A stretch of DNA of 32,676 bases, from NCBI GenBank assembly GCA_016840545.1, contig JAEOSD010000012.1, positions 1-32,676 of the forward strand, read 5' to 3'. The DNA comes from Promethearchaeota archaeon. Its GTDB lineage: Archaea; Asgardarchaeota; Lokiarchaeia; Sigyniarchaeales; SOKP01. The notes beneath the pieces are model-generated. The model had not been told where the DNA came from, did not search any database, and saw only the letters and a program-made list of their open reading frames with translations. This document shows, piece after piece, positions 13,235 to 19,964 of the stretch. The stretch's first letter is position 1. Every line of letters starts with the position of its first letter. Both the position numbers and the translations under genes were made by a program.

Positions 13235-13438
13235 GATATTTCTTTAATTCATTTAATTTCTTAATTAAATTATATTAATATTAACTCTAAAGTGTTTGCA
13301 ATTTGAAATTAGGCTCTTTTTGTATTTCTTGTAGATTCTATTTATATATTATAACTTCCATTATTTTTATTAAGAAATTACAAAAAATAATTAAAAATCT
13401 CAATAAAATTAATAATTCGAATAATTTGGTGTTTTTTT

Positions 13439-13852
13439 ATGGAGTTTGATGAAGAATTTGATGATGAATTTGATGATGAATTTGATGAAGAACTTGATGA
13501 TGAATTTGATGAAGAACTTGATGAAGAATTAGAAGAACCTTCTGCAAAAACTCCAGCGGAAGAGGTTAAGACTAAAACTCCAACAATTAAAGCTGTTCCG
13601 GCAGGAAAAAAGATTTCAGTTTATTTTATGTCAACAATAGGTCCTGGTGAAAAAAAGCAAAAATTGCTCATAAACACAGGAAACAGTGTTGGGGATATAA
13701 AAGAGACTGTTGCGAATTTATTTGGTTTAGATCCTGCTGATTTTCATTTATCTTCAGGTGGAATTACCATGGATGAGAGTTCAAATGTAAGTGAATATAA
13801 TGTGAATGATGGAGAAGATATACTATTAATTCCAGCAAGTACTGCTGGTTAA
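13439..13852 (+). CDS. Ubiquitin-like modifier 1 with acidic N-terminal repeat
   Basis: A 137-residue protein. Residues 2-33 are eight tetrapeptides of the type E-F/L-D-D/E. A linker with two KTP motifs ('AKTPAEEVKTKTP') follows, then a ubiquitin fold from about residue 57: 'KKISVYFMS', 'GPGEKKQKL', a helix around 'VGDIKETVANLFGL', 'DFHLSSGG' and 'NVNDGEDILLIPASTAG'. The last strand and the exposed tail are those of a ubiquitin-family modifier, but the end is Ala-Gly and the stop codon follows at once: there is no Gly-Gly and no propeptide to remove. GGTG lies seven bases before the ATG. E1, E2 and protease genes follow downstream, so conjugation through the C-terminal glycine is likely. Identity as a modifier rather than a carrier protein is inferred from this context. 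Confidence 0.85.
   Translation: MEFDEEFDDEFDDEFDEELDDEFDEELDEELEEPSAKTPAEEVKTKTPTIKAVPAGKKISVYFMSTIGPGEKKQKLLINTGNSVGDIKETVANLFGLDPADFHLSSGGITMDESSNVSEYNVNDGEDILLIPASTAG
13442..13537 (+). repeat. Eight tandem 12-bp units coding an acidic tail
   Basis: Codons 2-33 of ubiquitin-like 1 are eight in-frame units of 12 bases (consensus GAATTTGATGAT with GAA/CTT variants). They give 32 residues with only E, D, F and L. Unit number can change in steps of four residues without shifting the frame. The equivalent region of ubiquitin-like 2 has only about two such units. Confidence 0.85.
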
Positions 13853-13869: not shown

Positions 13870-14679
13870 TTAGTTTTTCTTTTTTAAATTTTTTTCTTTT
13901 CTTGATGGAATCAGAGCAATTTCGTCATCATCATCAATAGCATAATCTTTTATTTGTGAGTTTTCGTGCAATAATATTCCTCCAGAGGATAAAAGAAAAT
14001 CTTCTAAAATATAGTCAAATAATGTTCCAATTCTTTCTTTAACACTAAATATTAATTCTGTTGTATCAATTATAATGATTTTTGTTTTTTCACCTGGCTC
14101 AACTAATGATCTTATATAAACTCGTATCTGGTCTTCCTTTTCAATAAAATTTGTAGGAGGTGTATAAATTATCCCCTCGTCAGTCTTATCCCTGTTTTTC
14201 AACATATTTTCGATTAATATTTTTCTCTCGTGTTTATCAAAATACAACATTTCTCTGATAAACATTATTTTATCCATTTTTGATAATTCTAAAAGATTTA
14301 TTTTTTCTAATTCTTCCTCATTAAACACAGAAAAAATATATTTATTCATTATTTCCATATTATCATATGATTCATTTGATTCAACATAATCTTCTATTGA
14401 AGGCATGGCATCAATATAATCCTCAATAAGATCAATAGGTTTATTTTTAATCGATTTGGGTTTTTTGACATATTTTTTCTCGCTTATCCTCTCATCTTCA
14501 CTGCTCGCAGATTGAATAATTGTATAGATAGTACTGGTGGATAGTACTGAAACACTACCGATAACTAGAAAGAGAAATAAAGGAATACTTTCTATACGGA
14601 ATAAGAAAAAAGCCATATAGATAATTATAAAAATAATGTAAAGAGTTATAGTACTTAAAACTCTATGCTTTTTCTTCAT
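13870..14679 (-). CDS. Membrane-anchored ubiquitin-fold protein without conjugation tail
   Basis: A 269-residue protein. Two hydrophobic helices (about residues 10-27 and 31-55) are followed by a charged region and, at residues 184-259, a ubiquitin fold clearly related to the two modifiers next door: 'VYIRSLVEPGEKTK', 'DFLLSSGG', 'ENSQIKDYAIDDDDEIALIPS'. Where the modifiers end in 'IPASTAG', this one continues with a lysine-rich tail ('RKEKNLKKKN') and no C-terminal glycine, so it cannot be activated by E1. It is convergent with ubiquitin-like 1 with 17 bases between stops. A 23-bp element shared with the ubiquitin-like 2 promoter lies about 60-80 bases upstream. It may hold E1, E2 or ubiquitin-binding proteins at the membrane; that role is inference, the domain architecture is seen. 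Confidence 0.82.
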   Translation of the reverse strand: MKKKHRVLSTITLYIIFIIIYMAFFLFRIESIPLFLFLVIGSVSVLSTSTIYTIIQSASSEDERISEKKYVKKPKSIKNKPIDLIEDYIDAMPSIEDYVESNESYDNMEIMNKYIFSVFNEEELEKINLLELSKMDKIMFIREMLYFDKHERKILIENMLKNRDKTDEGIIYTPPTNFIEKEDQIRVYIRSLVEPGEKTKIIIIDTTELIFSVKERIGTLFDYILEDFLLSSGGILLHENSQIKDYAIDDDDEIALIPSRKEKNLKKKN

Positions 14680-14737
14680 GATATTTTTATTAAATTATTA
14701 TCTAAATTTCTAATACATAATTTAAAATTTAAATTCA

Positions 14738-14760
14738 ATTGGAATGAATTTGAAGTTTTT
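14738..14760 (-). promoter_or_regulatory. Shared 23-bp promoter element, copy upstream of membrane ubiquitin-fold gene
   Basis: Read on the minus strand, the element contains ACTTCAAATTCATTCCAAT after five A residues. It is an exact 23-base match, in the same orientation relative to its gene, to 15599-15621 upstream of ubiquitin-like 2. It ends 59 bases before the ATG at 14679 and is followed by an AT-rich TATA-like stretch (TTTAAATTTTAAATTA). An exact 23-base match in two promoters is unlikely by chance even at this base composition. Confidence 0.7.
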
Positions 14761-14764
14761 ATTT

Positions 14765-15436
14765 TCATACACCTTGAATTGTTTTTTTAACTTTAGAATA
14801 TTTCTCTGTATCTAATTTGAATGTAATTCTTTTTTTTTCTTTTTCAATTTTTATTAATTTCAGTTTTTTTAAAATATATAAATATTTTTTAATTATATTA
14901 TGATTCTTTTTTAAGCTAGTTGCTATTTCTGTAATTTTTAGTGCTTTATCTTCCTTTTTCATAAAATTAATTATTTCTTGAATAATAGCCAAATTTAAAT
15001 AATAATAGAGCTCGTCAAGTTCTGGATTTGAATCGTATTTAAAAACAATTCTTCGATTGTTAATTTTTTTTGATCTAACAAATCGAAATTTTTCCAAACA
15101 GGATAGATGCCATAAAGCCTGATTACTTCCGATATTTAGAGCATTCATTATTTCATTAATATTTGACGGATTTTTCTTTATGTAATTAAAGATTTCATTC
15201 CTTAATGGATGTTCAATAATATTATTTTTCATTAATTTTGTTCCAGGAATTATTATTCTCTTTTTAATAAGATTTTTAATTGTGATTTCAATCTTAGCTT
15301 TGTTGATAAACGGATTTGATTTTACCCTATTGTTAATAAATACAACAATGTCTTCTATTGAAAAGAACGGTTTTTTTTCTAAATATTCTTTTACTAATTC
15401 AAGAACAATAGATTTGACATTATTCGTAGAGTTCAT
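14765..15436 (-). CDS. Tandem winged-helix transcription factor-like protein
   Basis: A 223-residue basic protein with two predicted winged helix-turn-helix modules. The first, about residues 72-120, contains 'NEIFNYIKKNPSNINEIMNA' followed by 'LNIGSNQALWHLSCLEKF', the layout of ArsR/MarR-like archaeal regulators. The second, about 150-215, contains 'ITEIATSLKKNHNIIKKYLY' with a 'KLIKIEKEKKRITFKL' wing. The N-terminal 60 residues ('SIEDIVVFINNRVKSNPFIN') could form a third helical module. No ligand domain is seen. It lies between the two copies of the 23-bp element and between the two ubiquitin-fold genes that carry it, which makes it the natural candidate regulator of both; binding has to be inferred. 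Confidence 0.78.
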   Translation of the reverse strand: MNSTNNVKSIVLELVKEYLEKKPFFSIEDIVVFINNRVKSNPFINKAKIEITIKNLIKKRIIIPGTKLMKNNIIEHPLRNEIFNYIKKNPSNINEIMNALNIGSNQALWHLSCLEKFRFVRSKKINNRRIVFKYDSNPELDELYYYLNLAIIQEIINFMKKEDKALKITEIATSLKKNHNIIKKYLYILKKLKLIKIEKEKKRITFKLDTEKYSKVKKTIQGV

Positions 15437-15598
15437 AAGCCTATACTTGTATATTGTTAAAATATTTGGATTTTCTAAATATAAATTCCTTCTGCAACAT
15501 TATTTTACACCTTATATTATTATTAGGCATTCATTCAATTTATAATATAATTTCTTAGGCATCCAAATAGGTATCTTTTTATTTTTAATAAAAACTAA

Positions 15599-15621
15599 AA
15601 AAACTTCAAATTCATTCCAAT
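15599..15621 (+). promoter_or_regulatory. Shared 23-bp promoter element, copy upstream of ubiquitin-like 2
   Basis: Exact copy, on the plus strand, of the element at 14738-14760; together they form an inverted pair around the winged-helix gene. A TATA-like box, TTTTATAATAT, follows at 15625-15635, three bases after the element, so it occupies the BRE/activator position. A degenerate relative, TTCATTCAATTTATAATATA, occurs about 80 bases further upstream at about 15530-15549. Confidence 0.7.
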
Positions 15622-15624
15622 GGG

Positions 15625-15635
15625 TTTTATAATAT
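15625..15635 (+). promoter_or_regulatory. TATA-like box of ubiquitin-like 2
   Basis: TTTTATAATAT directly downstream of the 23-bp element. Transcription would begin near 15655, leaving a leader of about 50 bases before ATG 15705. Confidence 0.45.
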
Positions 15636-15704: not shown

Positions 15705-16031
15705 ATGAGTTTTGAAGAAAATTTTGATGAGGAATTAGAACCCGTTAAATCTAAAACACCATCTACTAAAACTCCTTCAGCAGGAAAGAAATTGACTTTA
15801 TATTTTACGTCAACCATTGGACCTGGTGAAAAGAAGGAAAAATTAACGGTAAATGATGCTAATCATGTAAGTGATATTAAGGAAACATTAGGAAATTTAT
15901 ATGGCCTTGATCCTAATGATTTTCATTTATCATCTGGTGGAGTTACGATGGATGAAAATAGTCAATTAAAAGATTATAATGTAAATGATGGCGACGATAT
16001 TCTTTTGATTCCTGCGAGTACTGCTGGGTAA
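15705..16031 (+). CDS. Ubiquitin-like modifier 2
   Basis: A 108-residue paralog of the modifier at 13439. A short acidic start ('SFEENFDEELEP') and a linker with two KTP motifs ('KSKTPSTKTPSAG') precede a ubiquitin fold from about residue 28. Signature pieces are 'GPGEKKEKL', 'DIKETLGNLYGL', 'DFHLSSGGVTMDENSQLKDY' and 'DDILLIPASTAG'. The C-terminal 12 residues agree with the first modifier, again ending in Ala-Gly at the stop codon. E1 follows after a U-tract hairpin, and the promoter carries the shared 23-bp element. The most likely role is the main conjugated modifier of this system. The paralogs differ mainly in the length of the acidic extension, which may set different localisation or partners. 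Confidence 0.87.
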   Translation: MSFEENFDEELEPVKSKTPSTKTPSAGKKLTLYFTSTIGPGEKKEKLTVNDANHVSDIKETLGNLYGLDPNDFHLSSGGVTMDENSQLKDYNVNDGDDILLIPASTAG

Positions 16032-16061: not shown

Positions 16062-16090
16062 ATGAAGGCATTAAGTCCTTCATTTTTTTT
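16062..16090 (+). terminator. Hairpin with U-tract between ubiquitin-like 2 and E1
   Basis: ATGAAGG (16062-16068) pairs perfectly with CCTTCAT (16077-16083) across an 8-base loop and is followed by eight T residues and further T-runs. It lies 30 bases after the ubiquitin-like 2 stop. It would end or attenuate transcription so that the modifier is made in excess over E1. Its left arm contains the ATG that would otherwise look like the E1 start. Confidence 0.6.
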
Positions 16091-16121
16091 ATTTTTTTTA
16101 TTATTATTAATGGTGATAATA

Positions 16122-17345
16122 TTGGATAAAGATTCAGATTTTTTTGCAAAAGCATTGTCAGTAAAAGAGAGAGATTTGTATGATCGCCAGTTTCGTCTCG
16201 AGGGCTGGTCCCAAAAATTAGTAAAAAACTCGAGAGTGTTAATTGTTGGTGTAGGAGGTTTAGGATGTGAAATTGCTAAAAATTTAGCCATGTTAGGGTT
16301 AGGCCAATTAGATCTTGTTGATTTAGATATCATTGAACATTCTAATTTGAATCGTCAAATTCTTTTCACAGATGCGAAGATAGGAGAACCTAAGGCAGTT
16401 GTTGCTGCTCGAAAACTAAAGGAAATTAACCCTAATATCATTGTTAAGGGATATCATACATCTCTAGAAAGATTAAATCCTGCATTATATCAAGCTGCTG
16501 AAGTTGTAATTGGGGGCCTTGATTCAATGAATGCGCGCTTGAACTTAAATGCTCAATGCATAAGATTTAGAAAACCACTCGTAGATGCAGGAGTATCAGG
16601 TTATCATGGTCATATTTACACTATCTTTCCGTATCAAAATGCTTGTTATGAGTGCAATCCATTACCAGTAAGCGAAAGTGATGAAATGGCAGCTTGTACA
16701 GTTGTTGGAGTCCCCAGAAAAAGGATTCATTGTGTTTTTAAAGGAGATATGGCATTTAAAGAAAAGTTTGATAGAGATCCAAATCCAAAAGATATAAATG
16801 ATATTAAGTTTATTCAAAAAGTTGCAAATGAATTGGTCAATAAACATAATTTCTTACCTGAATACACTAAAGATGATATCATAAAAATCATTGATAGGCA
16901 TGATCCTGGAATAATTACCATAAATGCAGTTATTTCTGCTTTACAATCACATGAGGTAGTAAAAATTCTTCATTGGAAAAAAGGTCATAAAGGATTAGGA
17001 GAACCTATTAAAAATTATGTGATTTTTAATGCCATGACGATGAAATTATACCATATTGAAAAACCGAGAAATCCAGAATGTTCTCAATGTGGTAAATCTG
17101 TTAGAAGAGTAGCTATAAAAATGAGATCTCAATCGCCATGTATAAATATAATTAAGACATTAAAGAAAAACGGATTTGAAGAGGAGCCTGATTTTGAACC
17201 TGTGCTAACCTTATTGGATTTCAATGATATTAAAGTAATTGATTTAGAACAGAACACTATTGAAAATGGTTTAAGAAATTACGAATTTATTACAGTTGCA
17301 GGGTTTAAGGGTGGAGAAATTTATGTAACCTTAAAATTAAAATGA
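16122..17345 (+). CDS. Ubiquitin-activating enzyme E1 (UBA3-like)
   Basis: Adenylates the modifier C-terminus and holds it as a thioester. The Rossmann ATP site 'IVGVGGLGCEIAKNLAMLGL' is followed by 'DLDIIEHSNLNRQILF' (nucleotide-binding Asp and the Asn/Arg/Gln motif). A CxxC pair ('CYEC') and a later 'CSQC' form the structural zinc site. 'ACTVVGVPRKRIHC' contains the catalytic cysteine (codon 16695-16697, residue 192 from this start), placed as in eukaryotic UBA3. The last 75 residues look like the ubiquitin-fold domain that recruits E2. Start: ATG 16062 lies in a terminator hairpin and would add a 20-residue hydrophobic stretch; TTG 16122 has GGTGAT at 16112-16117 and gives a normal E1 N-terminus. 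ATG 16110 is the other option. Architecture separates it from MoeB/ThiF. Confidence 0.93.
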   Translation: MDKDSDFFAKALSVKERDLYDRQFRLEGWSQKLVKNSRVLIVGVGGLGCEIAKNLAMLGLGQLDLVDLDIIEHSNLNRQILFTDAKIGEPKAVVAARKLKEINPNIIVKGYHTSLERLNPALYQAAEVVIGGLDSMNARLNLNAQCIRFRKPLVDAGVSGYHGHIYTIFPYQNACYECNPLPVSESDEMAACTVVGVPRKRIHCVFKGDMAFKEKFDRDPNPKDINDIKFIQKVANELVNKHNFLPEYTKDDIIKIIDRHDPGIITINAVISALQSHEVVKILHWKKGHKGLGEPIKNYVIFNAMTMKLYHIEKPRNPECSQCGKSVRRVAIKMRSQSPCINIIKTLKKNGFEEEPDFEPVLTLLDFNDIKVIDLEQNTIENGLRNYEFITVAGFKGGEIYVTLKLK

Positions 17346-17450: not shown

Positions 17451-17978
17451 ATGAGTATAAGAAGTAGTCGCGTTTCCCGCGATTTTGCTGGATTAAAAAA
17501 AATGCTTAAAGTTGGTACTATAGTTCAACTGAAACCATTTAATTCTAAAAAAAAGAGTATTGATCATTTAGCTATCACAATTAAAGGCCCTAAAGGTACT
17601 GTCTTTGCTGGGGGACTTTTTAAACTAGAAATGAGATTCCCTGCTCAGTATCCTAAGCAGCCTCCTTTTGTAAGAATGCATACTCCAATTTGGCATCCGA
17701 ATTTTTGGCCAAAACCAAGTGAATATAAAGGAAAGAGAAATATTTGTCTAGCATTAATAGATCCTTCCTTAATTGGTAAAAAGGGTGGATGGAGTCCTTC
17801 AAAAACTGCTGTTACAGTAGTTCAAGCAATAATTGCTATGTTAAATACCCGGGGTAAATATGTAAACCCAACAGATGTTTTTAATAAAAAAGCAGCAATA
17901 GAAATGATGAAAAATCCTAAATTTTTCGAGAAAAAAGTTAAAAATTTAGTGAAGAAGTACGCTAAGAACAAGTGGTGA
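17451..17978 (+). CDS. Ubiquitin-conjugating enzyme E2
   Basis: A 175-residue UBC-fold protein. The family signature is complete: 'FKLEMRFPAQYPKQPPFVRM' (strands 2-3 and the PxxPP turn), 'HPN' at residues 82-84, the acceptor cysteine in 'NICLAL' (C99), and 'WSPS' beginning at W114, followed by the long helix 'TAVTVVQAIIAML'. HPN to Cys is 15 residues and Cys to Trp is another 15, where common E2 enzymes have about 8 each; so loops of roughly seven residues are inserted on both sides of the active site. The basic N-terminus fits E1 docking. It takes the modifier from E1 and passes it to substrates with the RING protein. Seven bases separate it from the protease gene, so cotranslation is likely. 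Confidence 0.94.
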   Translation: MSIRSSRVSRDFAGLKKMLKVGTIVQLKPFNSKKKSIDHLAITIKGPKGTVFAGGLFKLEMRFPAQYPKQPPFVRMHTPIWHPNFWPKPSEYKGKRNICLALIDPSLIGKKGGWSPSKTAVTVVQAIIAMLNTRGKYVNPTDVFNKKAAIEMMKNPKFFEKKVKNLVKKYAKNKW

Positions 17979-17985
17979 AATCATT

Positions 17986-18789
17986 ATGGATATTGACGAG
18001 AAAAACAATTTAATCAAAGAAGCAATAAAGCAAAAAATTAAAGAGAAAATTAAAAAAGAATTGCTTGAAGAAATATATACCGAATTACAATTAGAAGAAG
18101 AATTAAGGGAAGAATTAACTTCCGAACTTCTTGAAACCCAGCCATTAGAGCATTCAGAAATAGTTAAAGCCAGACTTGAACCCATACCAATGGAACCAGT
18201 AATAACATATGCTAAAAATGACAAAGCAGAAGCAAAAATAGCTCTAACCGTAAAAGCTATCCTTAAGATCGCTAGTCATTCATTAAAATATGCTCATTCT
18301 AAAATTCGAAGAGAGGAATGGGTTGAAGTGATTGGATTGCTTGCTGGAAAATTTGATAATGCTAATGGAGTCCTTCATGTGGAAGATGCCTATCCAATGG
18401 GGCATGGTACAGCAGTGTATGCTGAAATTAAAGATTATAAAAATTACGTTAGAGCATTTAAAGACATAAAAAAGAATAGCCTTTTTATTTGTGGATGGTA
18501 TCATTCCCATCCTTCATATGGATGTTTCATGTCTAAAGAAGATTTAGGAACTCAAGCAAGATATCAAAAATTATGGGATAAAGCAATTGCGTTAGTTATA
18601 GATCCATACCAAATTGATGGCACTTCATTAGGATTTGAAATCTATCGTGCGAATTTTAAATCAAAGAAGTGGTTTTCAGTACCATTTGACGTTAAAGGAA
18701 ATTTAGATGTGAGAATGTTGCCAGAAATTTTAGAATTTATGAATCCAATTATTGAAGGTAAACCTGCTTATTTAGAATATGATGAATAA
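17986..18789 (+). CDS. Rpn11-like JAMM/MPN+ deubiquitinase
   Basis: A 267-residue zinc isopeptidase. The JAMM motif is intact: general base E114 ('EWVEVIGLLAGK') and zinc ligands H173, H175 and D186 with S183 in 'GWYHSHPSYGCFMSKEDLGT'. The sequence around it is close to proteasomal Rpn11 ('GWYHSHPGFGCWLS') and unlike bacterial RadC or archaeal Mov34 stand-alone forms. The first 60 residues are a charged helical stretch ('KQKIKEKIKKELLEE') likely to form a coiled coil for docking. The E2 gene lies 7 bases upstream, the RING gene 23 bases downstream. Since the modifiers here are encoded without a propeptide, its main task should be removal of conjugated modifier rather than maturation; this is inferred. 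Confidence 0.93.
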   Translation: MDIDEKNNLIKEAIKQKIKEKIKKELLEEIYTELQLEEELREELTSELLETQPLEHSEIVKARLEPIPMEPVITYAKNDKAEAKIALTVKAILKIASHSLKYAHSKIRREEWVEVIGLLAGKFDNANGVLHVEDAYPMGHGTAVYAEIKDYKNYVRAFKDIKKNSLFICGWYHSHPSYGCFMSKEDLGTQARYQKLWDKAIALVIDPYQIDGTSLGFEIYRANFKSKKWFSVPFDVKGNLDVRMLPEILEFMNPIIEGKPAYLEYDE

Positions 18790-18812: not shown

Positions 18813-19964
18813 ATGGTTAAAAAGAAGGTTTCAGTGATAATATTTGTCATTTTTCTGATAATTGGTATAATACATAGTTCTATCTCAATTTCTTTAAATA
18901 TTTTTTTAACCTGGATCTTTATTGGTTTATGGATAATTTTTACCGTTAAAATTTTTGAAAATATAAAACACTATCGCGAATTTAATTCACCACACAATAC
19001 TGCTTTTTTTGTAATTATTCCTTTATTTATCGGAATTTTTTACTCCATCTGGGGGTATTTTACAGGTATATTGGGTGAAAACCTTCTTGAAGGTTCAAAT
19101 CTATATTTTAGTTGGTGGAGTCTCATTTTTGGATTTCCATTTATATTATATGGTTCTTATTCTTTATATCGTTGTTTTAAGAAATATAATGTAATCTATT
19201 TTGGAACCAAGTCAGTAAAAGCTAGAACATTAGGATATATTTTAACTTCCACAGTTATTCTTTTTATAATAATTTATTGGGTGATGTTTTATACTATTAT
19301 AGAATTTTATGATTCTCCTATAACCCCTCTTCATTTCTCTTTAAATCTAAATCTTTTATTATTATTCATTGCATCGTTATTGATATTTATTATTTTTGGA
19401 TTAGCTAGTTCACATAGAACACTTCCAACATTAACTCGAGATTACATTGCTCAACGTACTAGAAGCATAAATTCATTAAGTACTCCTACAATTCAAAGGC
19501 AAAGGGTACGTACAACAACTAGAACTACTCCAACACCTTCAAGAAGAAATATAACTCAAACAACAAGATCTAGATCTCACTCATCTAGAACAACACCTAC
19601 TTCCCATAGGCAAAAAACTAGAACAACCAAAACTACTAGAACTAGAGCCGTAAAAACAACTTCAAAAGCTATAAATTTAAATAAATATAAACCAAGAGCA
19701 TCATATCTGTCAGAAGATGATTTTAAATGTATTTTTTGTTTTAAACTGCCAAAACTCCCCGATGATAATGGCAGGGGGATAATTGTATGTCCAAATTGTA
19801 GATATCCGGCTCATGCTGATGAATTTAAAGATTGGCTAAGAACCTCAAATCTCTGTTCAAGATGTAGTACTCCCATTCCATCCACATTTAAACGTAATCC
19901 TAGAATAATTAGTATAAAAAATTATCAAATTATCTATAGGCATTTTTTAAAGAAGAAAAGATAG
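18813..19964 (+). CDS. Membrane RING-type E3 ligase-like protein
   Basis: A 383-residue protein with three parts. Residues 1-200 hold about six hydrophobic helices (roughly 7-25, 28-48, 63-85, 100-120, 140-163, 178-198). Residues 201-287 are a Thr/Arg/Ser-rich disordered linker. Residues 303-352 form a RING-like zinc module: C306, C309, C326, C329, H334, C348 and C351, with 'FKDWL' before the last pair as in eukaryotic RING fingers. Only seven of eight canonical ligands are evident; D336 may serve as the eighth. GGTGA stands upstream of the ATG. As the third gene of the E2-protease operon it would tether E2 to the membrane and direct modification of membrane or nearby proteins. RING identity is strong from context, fair from sequence alone. 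Confidence 0.85.
   Translation: MVKKKVSVIIFVIFLIIGIIHSSISISLNIFLTWIFIGLWIIFTVKIFENIKHYREFNSPHNTAFFVIIPLFIGIFYSIWGYFTGILGENLLEGSNLYFSWWSLIFGFPFILYGSYSLYRCFKKYNVIYFGTKSVKARTLGYILTSTVILFIIIYWVMFYTIIEFYDSPITPLHFSLNLNLLLLFIASLLIFIIFGLASSHRTLPTLTRDYIAQRTRSINSLSTPTIQRQRVRTTTRTTPTPSRRNITQTTRSRSHSSRTTPTSHRQKTRTTKTTRTRAVKTTSKAINLNKYKPRASYLSEDDFKCIFCFKLPKLPDDNGRGIIVCPNCRYPAHADEFKDWLRTSNLCSRCSTPIPSTFKRNPRIISIKNYQIIYRHFLKKKR

Follow-up and report, generated by a model that had tools for sequence, protein, structure and literature searches.

A conserved promoter element and a probable winged-helix regulator at the ubiquitin genes of Lokiarchaeal archaea

The locus examined here raises the question of whether archaeal ubiquitin genes can be placed under a transcriptional control of their own: in a 32,676-nt stretch of DNA (hereafter "the window") from a Lokiarchaeal (Asgard) genome (2.88 Mb, 92% complete), a short sequence occurs in two inverted copies, each ahead of a ubiquitin-fold gene, with a winged-helix gene between them. 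Asgard archaea are related to the ancestors of eukaryotes, and among prokaryotes their ubiquitin systems come closest to those of eukaryotes. Ubiquitin operons of archaea have already been described, along with the enzymes that they encode (PMC5654768, PMC6043591, PMC9192718), and our literature search found structural and biochemical papers only and none on the transcriptional control of these systems, with most subscription journals and preprints lying outside its reach.

A rare element at two promoters

Elements A and B (Table 1) are exact reverse complements over 23 bp, as the initial annotation of this DNA had noticed; extension in either direction meets a mismatch, and the inverted repeat reaches 31 nt at 90% once mismatches are allowed. 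The only other inverted pair of ≥20 nt in the window was an A/T-rich chance pair. The placement described in that annotation, upstream of ubiquitin-fold genes, oriented with the gene and before a TATA-like stretch, was also borne out: element A is read on the minus strand 58 nt ahead of the ATG at 14679, and element B on the plus strand 83 nt ahead of the ATG at 15705. By inspection, the element is asymmetric, with TTC occurring twice in direct orientation ten bases apart.

Table 1 Features of the ubiquitin locus, with positions in the window
Feature	Position	Strand	Evidence or remark
Ubiquitin A	13439-13852	+	First ubiquitin gene of the locus
Target gene A (membrane-ubiquitin): N-terminal hydrophobic (membrane) part and C-terminal ubiquitin fold, no glycine tail	13870-14679	-	Translation; Pfam ubiquitin E=0.0014, below curated cut-off; gene order kept
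TATA-like box of promoter A, TTTAAATTTT	14724-14733	-	Four bases past element A; spacing same in relatives
Element A	14738-14760 (core 14738-14755)	-	Upstream of membrane-ubiquitin gene; exact repeat, kept in relatives, profile score 45.5
Probable regulator, 223 aa: N-terminal helical domain and two winged-helix domains	14765-15436	-	Pfam HTH_5 and other HTH families; AlphaFold; paralogue-element pairing
Separate conserved TATA-like box AATTTATAATATA upstream of regulator gene	about 15537-15549		Kept in 28 aligned intergenic regions
Element B	15599-15621 (core 15604-15621)	+	Upstream of ubiquitin B; exact repeat, profile score 49.8
TATA-like box of promoter B, TTTATAATAT	15626-15635	+	Four bases past element B; spacing same in relatives
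Target gene B: ubiquitin B, 108 aa	15705-16031	+	Pfam ubiquitin E=9e-7; orthologues in all syntenic loci
E1-like activating enzyme (ThiF family)	16062-17345	+	Pfam ThiF E=4.5e-60; probably read from promoter B, operon membership inferred
E2 ubiquitin-conjugating enzyme	17451-17978	+	Pfam UQ_con E=1e-25
JAB/Rpn11-like deubiquitinase	17986-18789	+	Pfam JAB E=2.8e-15
Weakly RING- or zinc-ribbon-like protein	18813-19964	+

A whole-genome search for the element had been set beforehand as a test that could refute the regulon reading, and it did not do so. At ≤3 mismatches, the pattern of element plus TATA matched only two places in the 2.88-Mb genome, A and B, and the reversed control pattern matched none across the same genome. 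The bare 18-mer was likewise found exactly only at A and B genome-wide, the runners-up carrying 2 mismatches, while a second degenerate pattern returned A, B, and one three-mismatch match. Dinucleotide shuffles of the window gave a mean of 0.2 matches at ≤3 mismatches, with ≥2 matches in one shuffle out of 100. A and B ranked first and second within the source genome (B higher; Table 1) under a profile trained on other genomes, and the next best position in the window scored -1.1. The criterion that a regulon's target genes share a promoter element absent elsewhere in the genome is met. A degenerate copy that had been suggested near 15530-15549 scored -26 (rank 151) and is therefore not a copy of the element; the TATA-like box there is conserved in its own right. 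Conserved TATA-like boxes span 15514-15549, upstream of the regulator gene, with AATTTATAATATA kept in 28 aligned loci, and they may serve as a promoter for the regulator itself or as a second start reading toward ubiquitin B.

The ubiquitin, E1, E2, and Rpn11/JAB genes lie together, as expected of an archaeal ubiquitin-conjugation cluster, whereas the criterion of a C-terminal diglycine is not met, both free ubiquitins ending in ...IPASTAG. Gaps of 30, 105, and 7 nt separate ubiquitin B from E1, E1 from E2, and E2 from the protease, and from this spacing alone we infer that promoter B very probably drives all four genes. The initial annotation, in which element B served a ubiquitin gene, was thus right about ubiquitin B and probably too narrow in leaving out the E1, E2, and deubiquitinase genes. 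Ubiquitin A was considered as a further regulon member and excluded: it has a different conserved box upstream and no element. This box, ACTCTAAAGTGTTTG at 13283-13300, lies between ubiquitin A and a divergent coiled-coil gene and is kept in 19 of 21 relatives. Ubiquitin A also has an acidic N-terminal tail of FDEE repeats.

Conservation and history within the family

Orthologues of the regulator, at 56–91% identity, occur in about 40 of the 65 genomes of the family, and none was seen at E ≤ 1e-30 in the 18 other genomes of the class; among named records, the closest copies come from Candidatus Lokiarchaeota MAGs. The loci of 29 relatives preserve the gene order ubiquitin A, membrane-ubiquitin, regulator, ubiquitin B, the exceptions being contig ends and two loci in which the regulator and ubiquitin B lie farther apart, and E1, E2, and JAB come next in the wider regions of at least 20 of those genomes. 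When only its 18 bases are used to locate it, the element lies upstream of both genes in these 29 loci wherever sequence is present, and a TATA-like stretch follows four bases on in nearly all of about 57 sites. A second criterion for a regulon, cross-species conservation of the element in position and sequence, is met across these syntenic loci. Element B is also the most conserved 20-mer (97.5%) of the intergenic region in 28 aligned intergenic regions. The part conserved across relatives is YTYCAAnnTYATTCCAAT plus TATA, with a site-specific consensus of CTTCAAAATCATTCCAAT for B and YTYCAAnTTTATTCCAAT for A. Because A and B are identical only in the source genome and its sister G044, their perfect match is a chance local outcome of drift or gene conversion; the exact 23-bp sharing that first marked out the element is thus real here and confined to these two genomes.

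The element and the regulator are also absent together. Genera g4, g5, g6, and g9 and genome G014 have a single ubiquitin–E1 operon with neither a regulator orthologue nor an element (profile scores <0), and no ubiquitin, orthologue, or strong element was detectable in genus g2. In genus g7, membrane-ubiquitin, regulator, and ubiquitin B form a separate cassette in which both elements carry CCT rather than CCA, and a separate E1 operon lacks the element; from this it seems that the cassette joined the E1 operon in the ancestor of g1, g3, and g8. Elements are present without a detected regulator orthologue in G025, G008, and G058. Incomplete assembly could be established as the cause of a missing regulator for G042 only, whose home locus is broken by contig ends to either side of the missing gene (contig C88 starts inside the membrane-ubiquitin gene and C37 starts 81 nt ahead of ubiquitin B), so that this genome is not a counterexample.

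We then consider sites outside the home locus. A profile built solely from home-locus sites of other genomes was run over the 65 genomes, and by our own tally about 46 strong sites (above 25 bits) lie elsewhere. Twenty-four of these precede further ubiquitin genes in related genera; since such duplicates may have brought their promoters along, many of these sites may be inherited and are therefore not independent events. More telling are the sites at E1, E2, and unrelated genes: one strong site precedes E1 in G042, where about 2 kb now parts E1 from ubiquitin B, and within the home locus the E2 gene has its own element in genus g3. Four strong sites precede 241-aa proteins that look roadblock/longin-like by eye (their Pfam match being a C-terminal HTH only), six precede members of a 71–81-aa family, and about ten have no assigned family, one of them preceding a 97-aa membrane protein that recurs at weaker sites. 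In some genomes the element thus also precedes three distinct gene families of unknown role, so that the regulon may extend beyond ubiquitin. The 71–81-aa family (MSSQTVEKK...NNIIIPFSEFG...), which has no Pfam match and at times occurs as two tandem copies, lies behind the element at L077, L084, L149, L156, L159, L163, L166, and L173, and the 97-aa family (MREEDLMRLLAG...) lies behind weaker copies at L162, L170, L172, L174, L175, and L178, each family recurring in several genomes. A second ubiquitin–E1–E2 cluster was seen in G032 (contig C28, L271), where the contig end cuts just upstream of ubiquitin.

A winged-helix family paired with element variants

The AlphaFold model of the regulator, built from the family alignment (pLDDT 91), predicts an N-terminal three-helix domain and two winged-helix domains. 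The criterion for an ArsR-type winged helix is met by Pfam HTH_5 (31.3 bits against a cut-off of 22), and single domains match ArsR, CzrA, and SmtB in Foldseek (TM about 0.7–0.8 over about 90 target residues). Foldseek gave no full-length structural match, a sequence search of the PDB gave no match, and whole-protein ArsR family models were not met (NCBIfam SdpR, 38.5 of the 100 required; HTH_metalloreg, 37.4 of 55).

More distant paralogues provide a view of the pairing away from the ubiquitin genes. We examined 41 of them at unlinked loci, 40 with downstream sequence, and 16 of these 40 had a same-strand TTC[AG]-N8-CCA no more than 250 nt downstream, whereas Markov simulations averaged 0.63 and never exceeded 3. 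Controls gave 0 on the opposite strand and 0–2 at each of the other spacings. No paralogue with a G-[S/A]-N recognition helix lacked the motif where downstream sequence was available, and full-profile matches adjoin 6 of 11 paralogues with this helix versus 0 of 30 others (Fisher p=1e-4), while three paralogues with an SNHVVV helix have a common, different variant, TTCAAAAAYTTACCA. Divergent TTC-N8-CCA matches upstream of some distant paralogues resemble neighboring coding sequence and were excluded from these counts. Detected homologues of the regulator number 22 in G007, 24 in G009, and 14 in G010 (genera g3 and g4). Several of these homologues have large proteins of secreted appearance as neighbors, a hint that local regulators of this kind form a wider family.

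Proposed control and comparison with known systems

Taken together, the element is real, rare, conserved, positioned at promoters, and tied both to a winged-helix family and to ubiquitin genes. We consider it likely that one Lokiarchaeal family has a regulon dedicated to ubiquitin, in which the element is the operator and is bound by the 223-aa winged-helix protein, which would control both promoters; binding, operon structure, and direction of control are inferred. Comparative genomics strongly supports this putative regulon, and the initial proposal of a small ubiquitin regulon flanking its own regulator gene draws support from the two-copy rarity, about 30 syntenic loci, the bias toward the ubiquitin system, the pairing at paralogues, and co-absence, with physical binding remaining an inference. 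Under this model, the protein encoded between the two copies would bind the element, its two winged-helix domains probably reading two half-sites, TTCAAAT and TTCCAAT, that lie a helical turn from each other; a direct TTC repeat at ten bases would suit two winged helices of one chain on one face of the DNA. Judged by its position four bases upstream of TATA, the element abuts the predicted place of TFB contact, where the bound protein may control assembly of the pre-initiation complex at two promoters, one for the membrane-anchored ubiquitin-fold gene and the other for ubiquitin B with E1, E2, and the deubiquitinase. Provided that the protein binds, activation through help to TBP/TFB is in our view slightly more likely than blocking, on the grounds of the position and of what is known of archaeal activators. 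An RNA element in the leader was rejected because the element sits upstream of TATA.

Other explanations differ in how much of this they leave standing. The winged-helix protein could instead act as a repressor, masking the region contacted by TFB so that both promoters stay silent until a ligand or stress releases it, a possibility that we hold open with some doubt. Its ArsR-like domain fold would fit, ArsR proteins typically being repressors, as would an element that abuts the TFB contact region; however, no ligand site was identified, and the whole element lies upstream of TATA in near-constant register, not over TATA or the start site. Binding wholly upstream of TATA in such a register is more usual for archaeal activators. 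It is unlikely that the element is instead read by another factor, e.g., a paralogous TFB for which it is an extended B-recognition element, with the winged-helix gene an unrelated neighbor. The fixed four-base spacing to TATA and the position over the B-recognition region would suit such a factor, as would the element-bearing genomes without a detected regulator, but the same element architecture recurs beside winged-helix paralogues at unlinked loci, its variant tracking the recognition helix, and element and orthologue are co-absent in some genera.

It is very improbable that the repeat merely reflects a recent duplication or gene conversion of a piece of promoter and has no role in regulation. 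In favor of this idea, duplication also links the free ubiquitin genes of the locus to each other, and only in one pair of sister species do the two copies match exactly; yet the element is kept across genera while its flanks diverge, a cross-genus conservation that already contradicts mere duplication, and A and B differ elsewhere but retain TTC and CCA. Returning to the dedicated regulon, a broader scheme can be put forward tentatively, as a plausible one on which we would not yet rely: the three-domain winged-helix proteins may be an expanded, previously undescribed Asgard family of promoter-specific pre-initiation-complex factors, each reading its own TTC-N9-CCA variant four bases upstream of TATA and moving with its target as a regulator–promoter–target cassette. 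In a Lokiarchaeal ancestor, insertion of one such cassette between the ubiquitin and E1 genes would have placed the whole ubiquitin-conjugation operon under its control.

The element and its probable regulator point to dedicated transcriptional control of ubiquitin genes in Lokiarchaeal archaea, and offer a first handle on the expression of Asgard ubiquitin genes. They suggest that the ubiquitin system is specifically coordinated, perhaps inducible, and the paralogues offer a recognition-helix/operator code within a family of up to about 24 detected homologues per genome.

Among known systems, ArsR/SmtB-type regulators (CzrA, SmtB, HlyU) resemble each winged-helix domain taken singly (Pfam HTH_5, Foldseek). 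ArsR proteins are single-domain dimers that bind palindromes, whereas the regulator here has three HTH-like domains in one chain and its putative operator is asymmetric and direct-repeat-like, not meeting the criterion of a palindrome; apart from the domain fold, the features that define the ArsR family are lacking in the regulator. Ptr2 of Methanocaldococcus, an archaeal promoter-proximal activator of the Lrp/AsnC family, binds just upstream of TATA/BRE, and the site described here lies likewise immediately upstream of that region, although the regulator has no Lrp/AsnC family match. In the yeast Rpn4/PACE proteasome regulon, one dedicated factor and one short promoter element coordinate a system of protein modification or degradation; the likeness is one of analogy only, protein and element being unrelated and no common ancestry implied. 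The closest counterparts of the locus itself are the archaeal ubiquitin operons of Caldiarchaeum subterraneum and the Asgard clusters (PMC5654768, PMC9192718), in which ubiquitin, E1, E2, an Rpn11-like protease, and a RING-like candidate are similarly clustered and for which these two papers contain no promoter discussion. Unlike in those operons, a block of membrane-ubiquitin, regulator, and second ubiquitin here lies between ubiquitin and E1 together with a conserved operator (putative, without binding data), and the modifiers end in STAG, not in diglycine.
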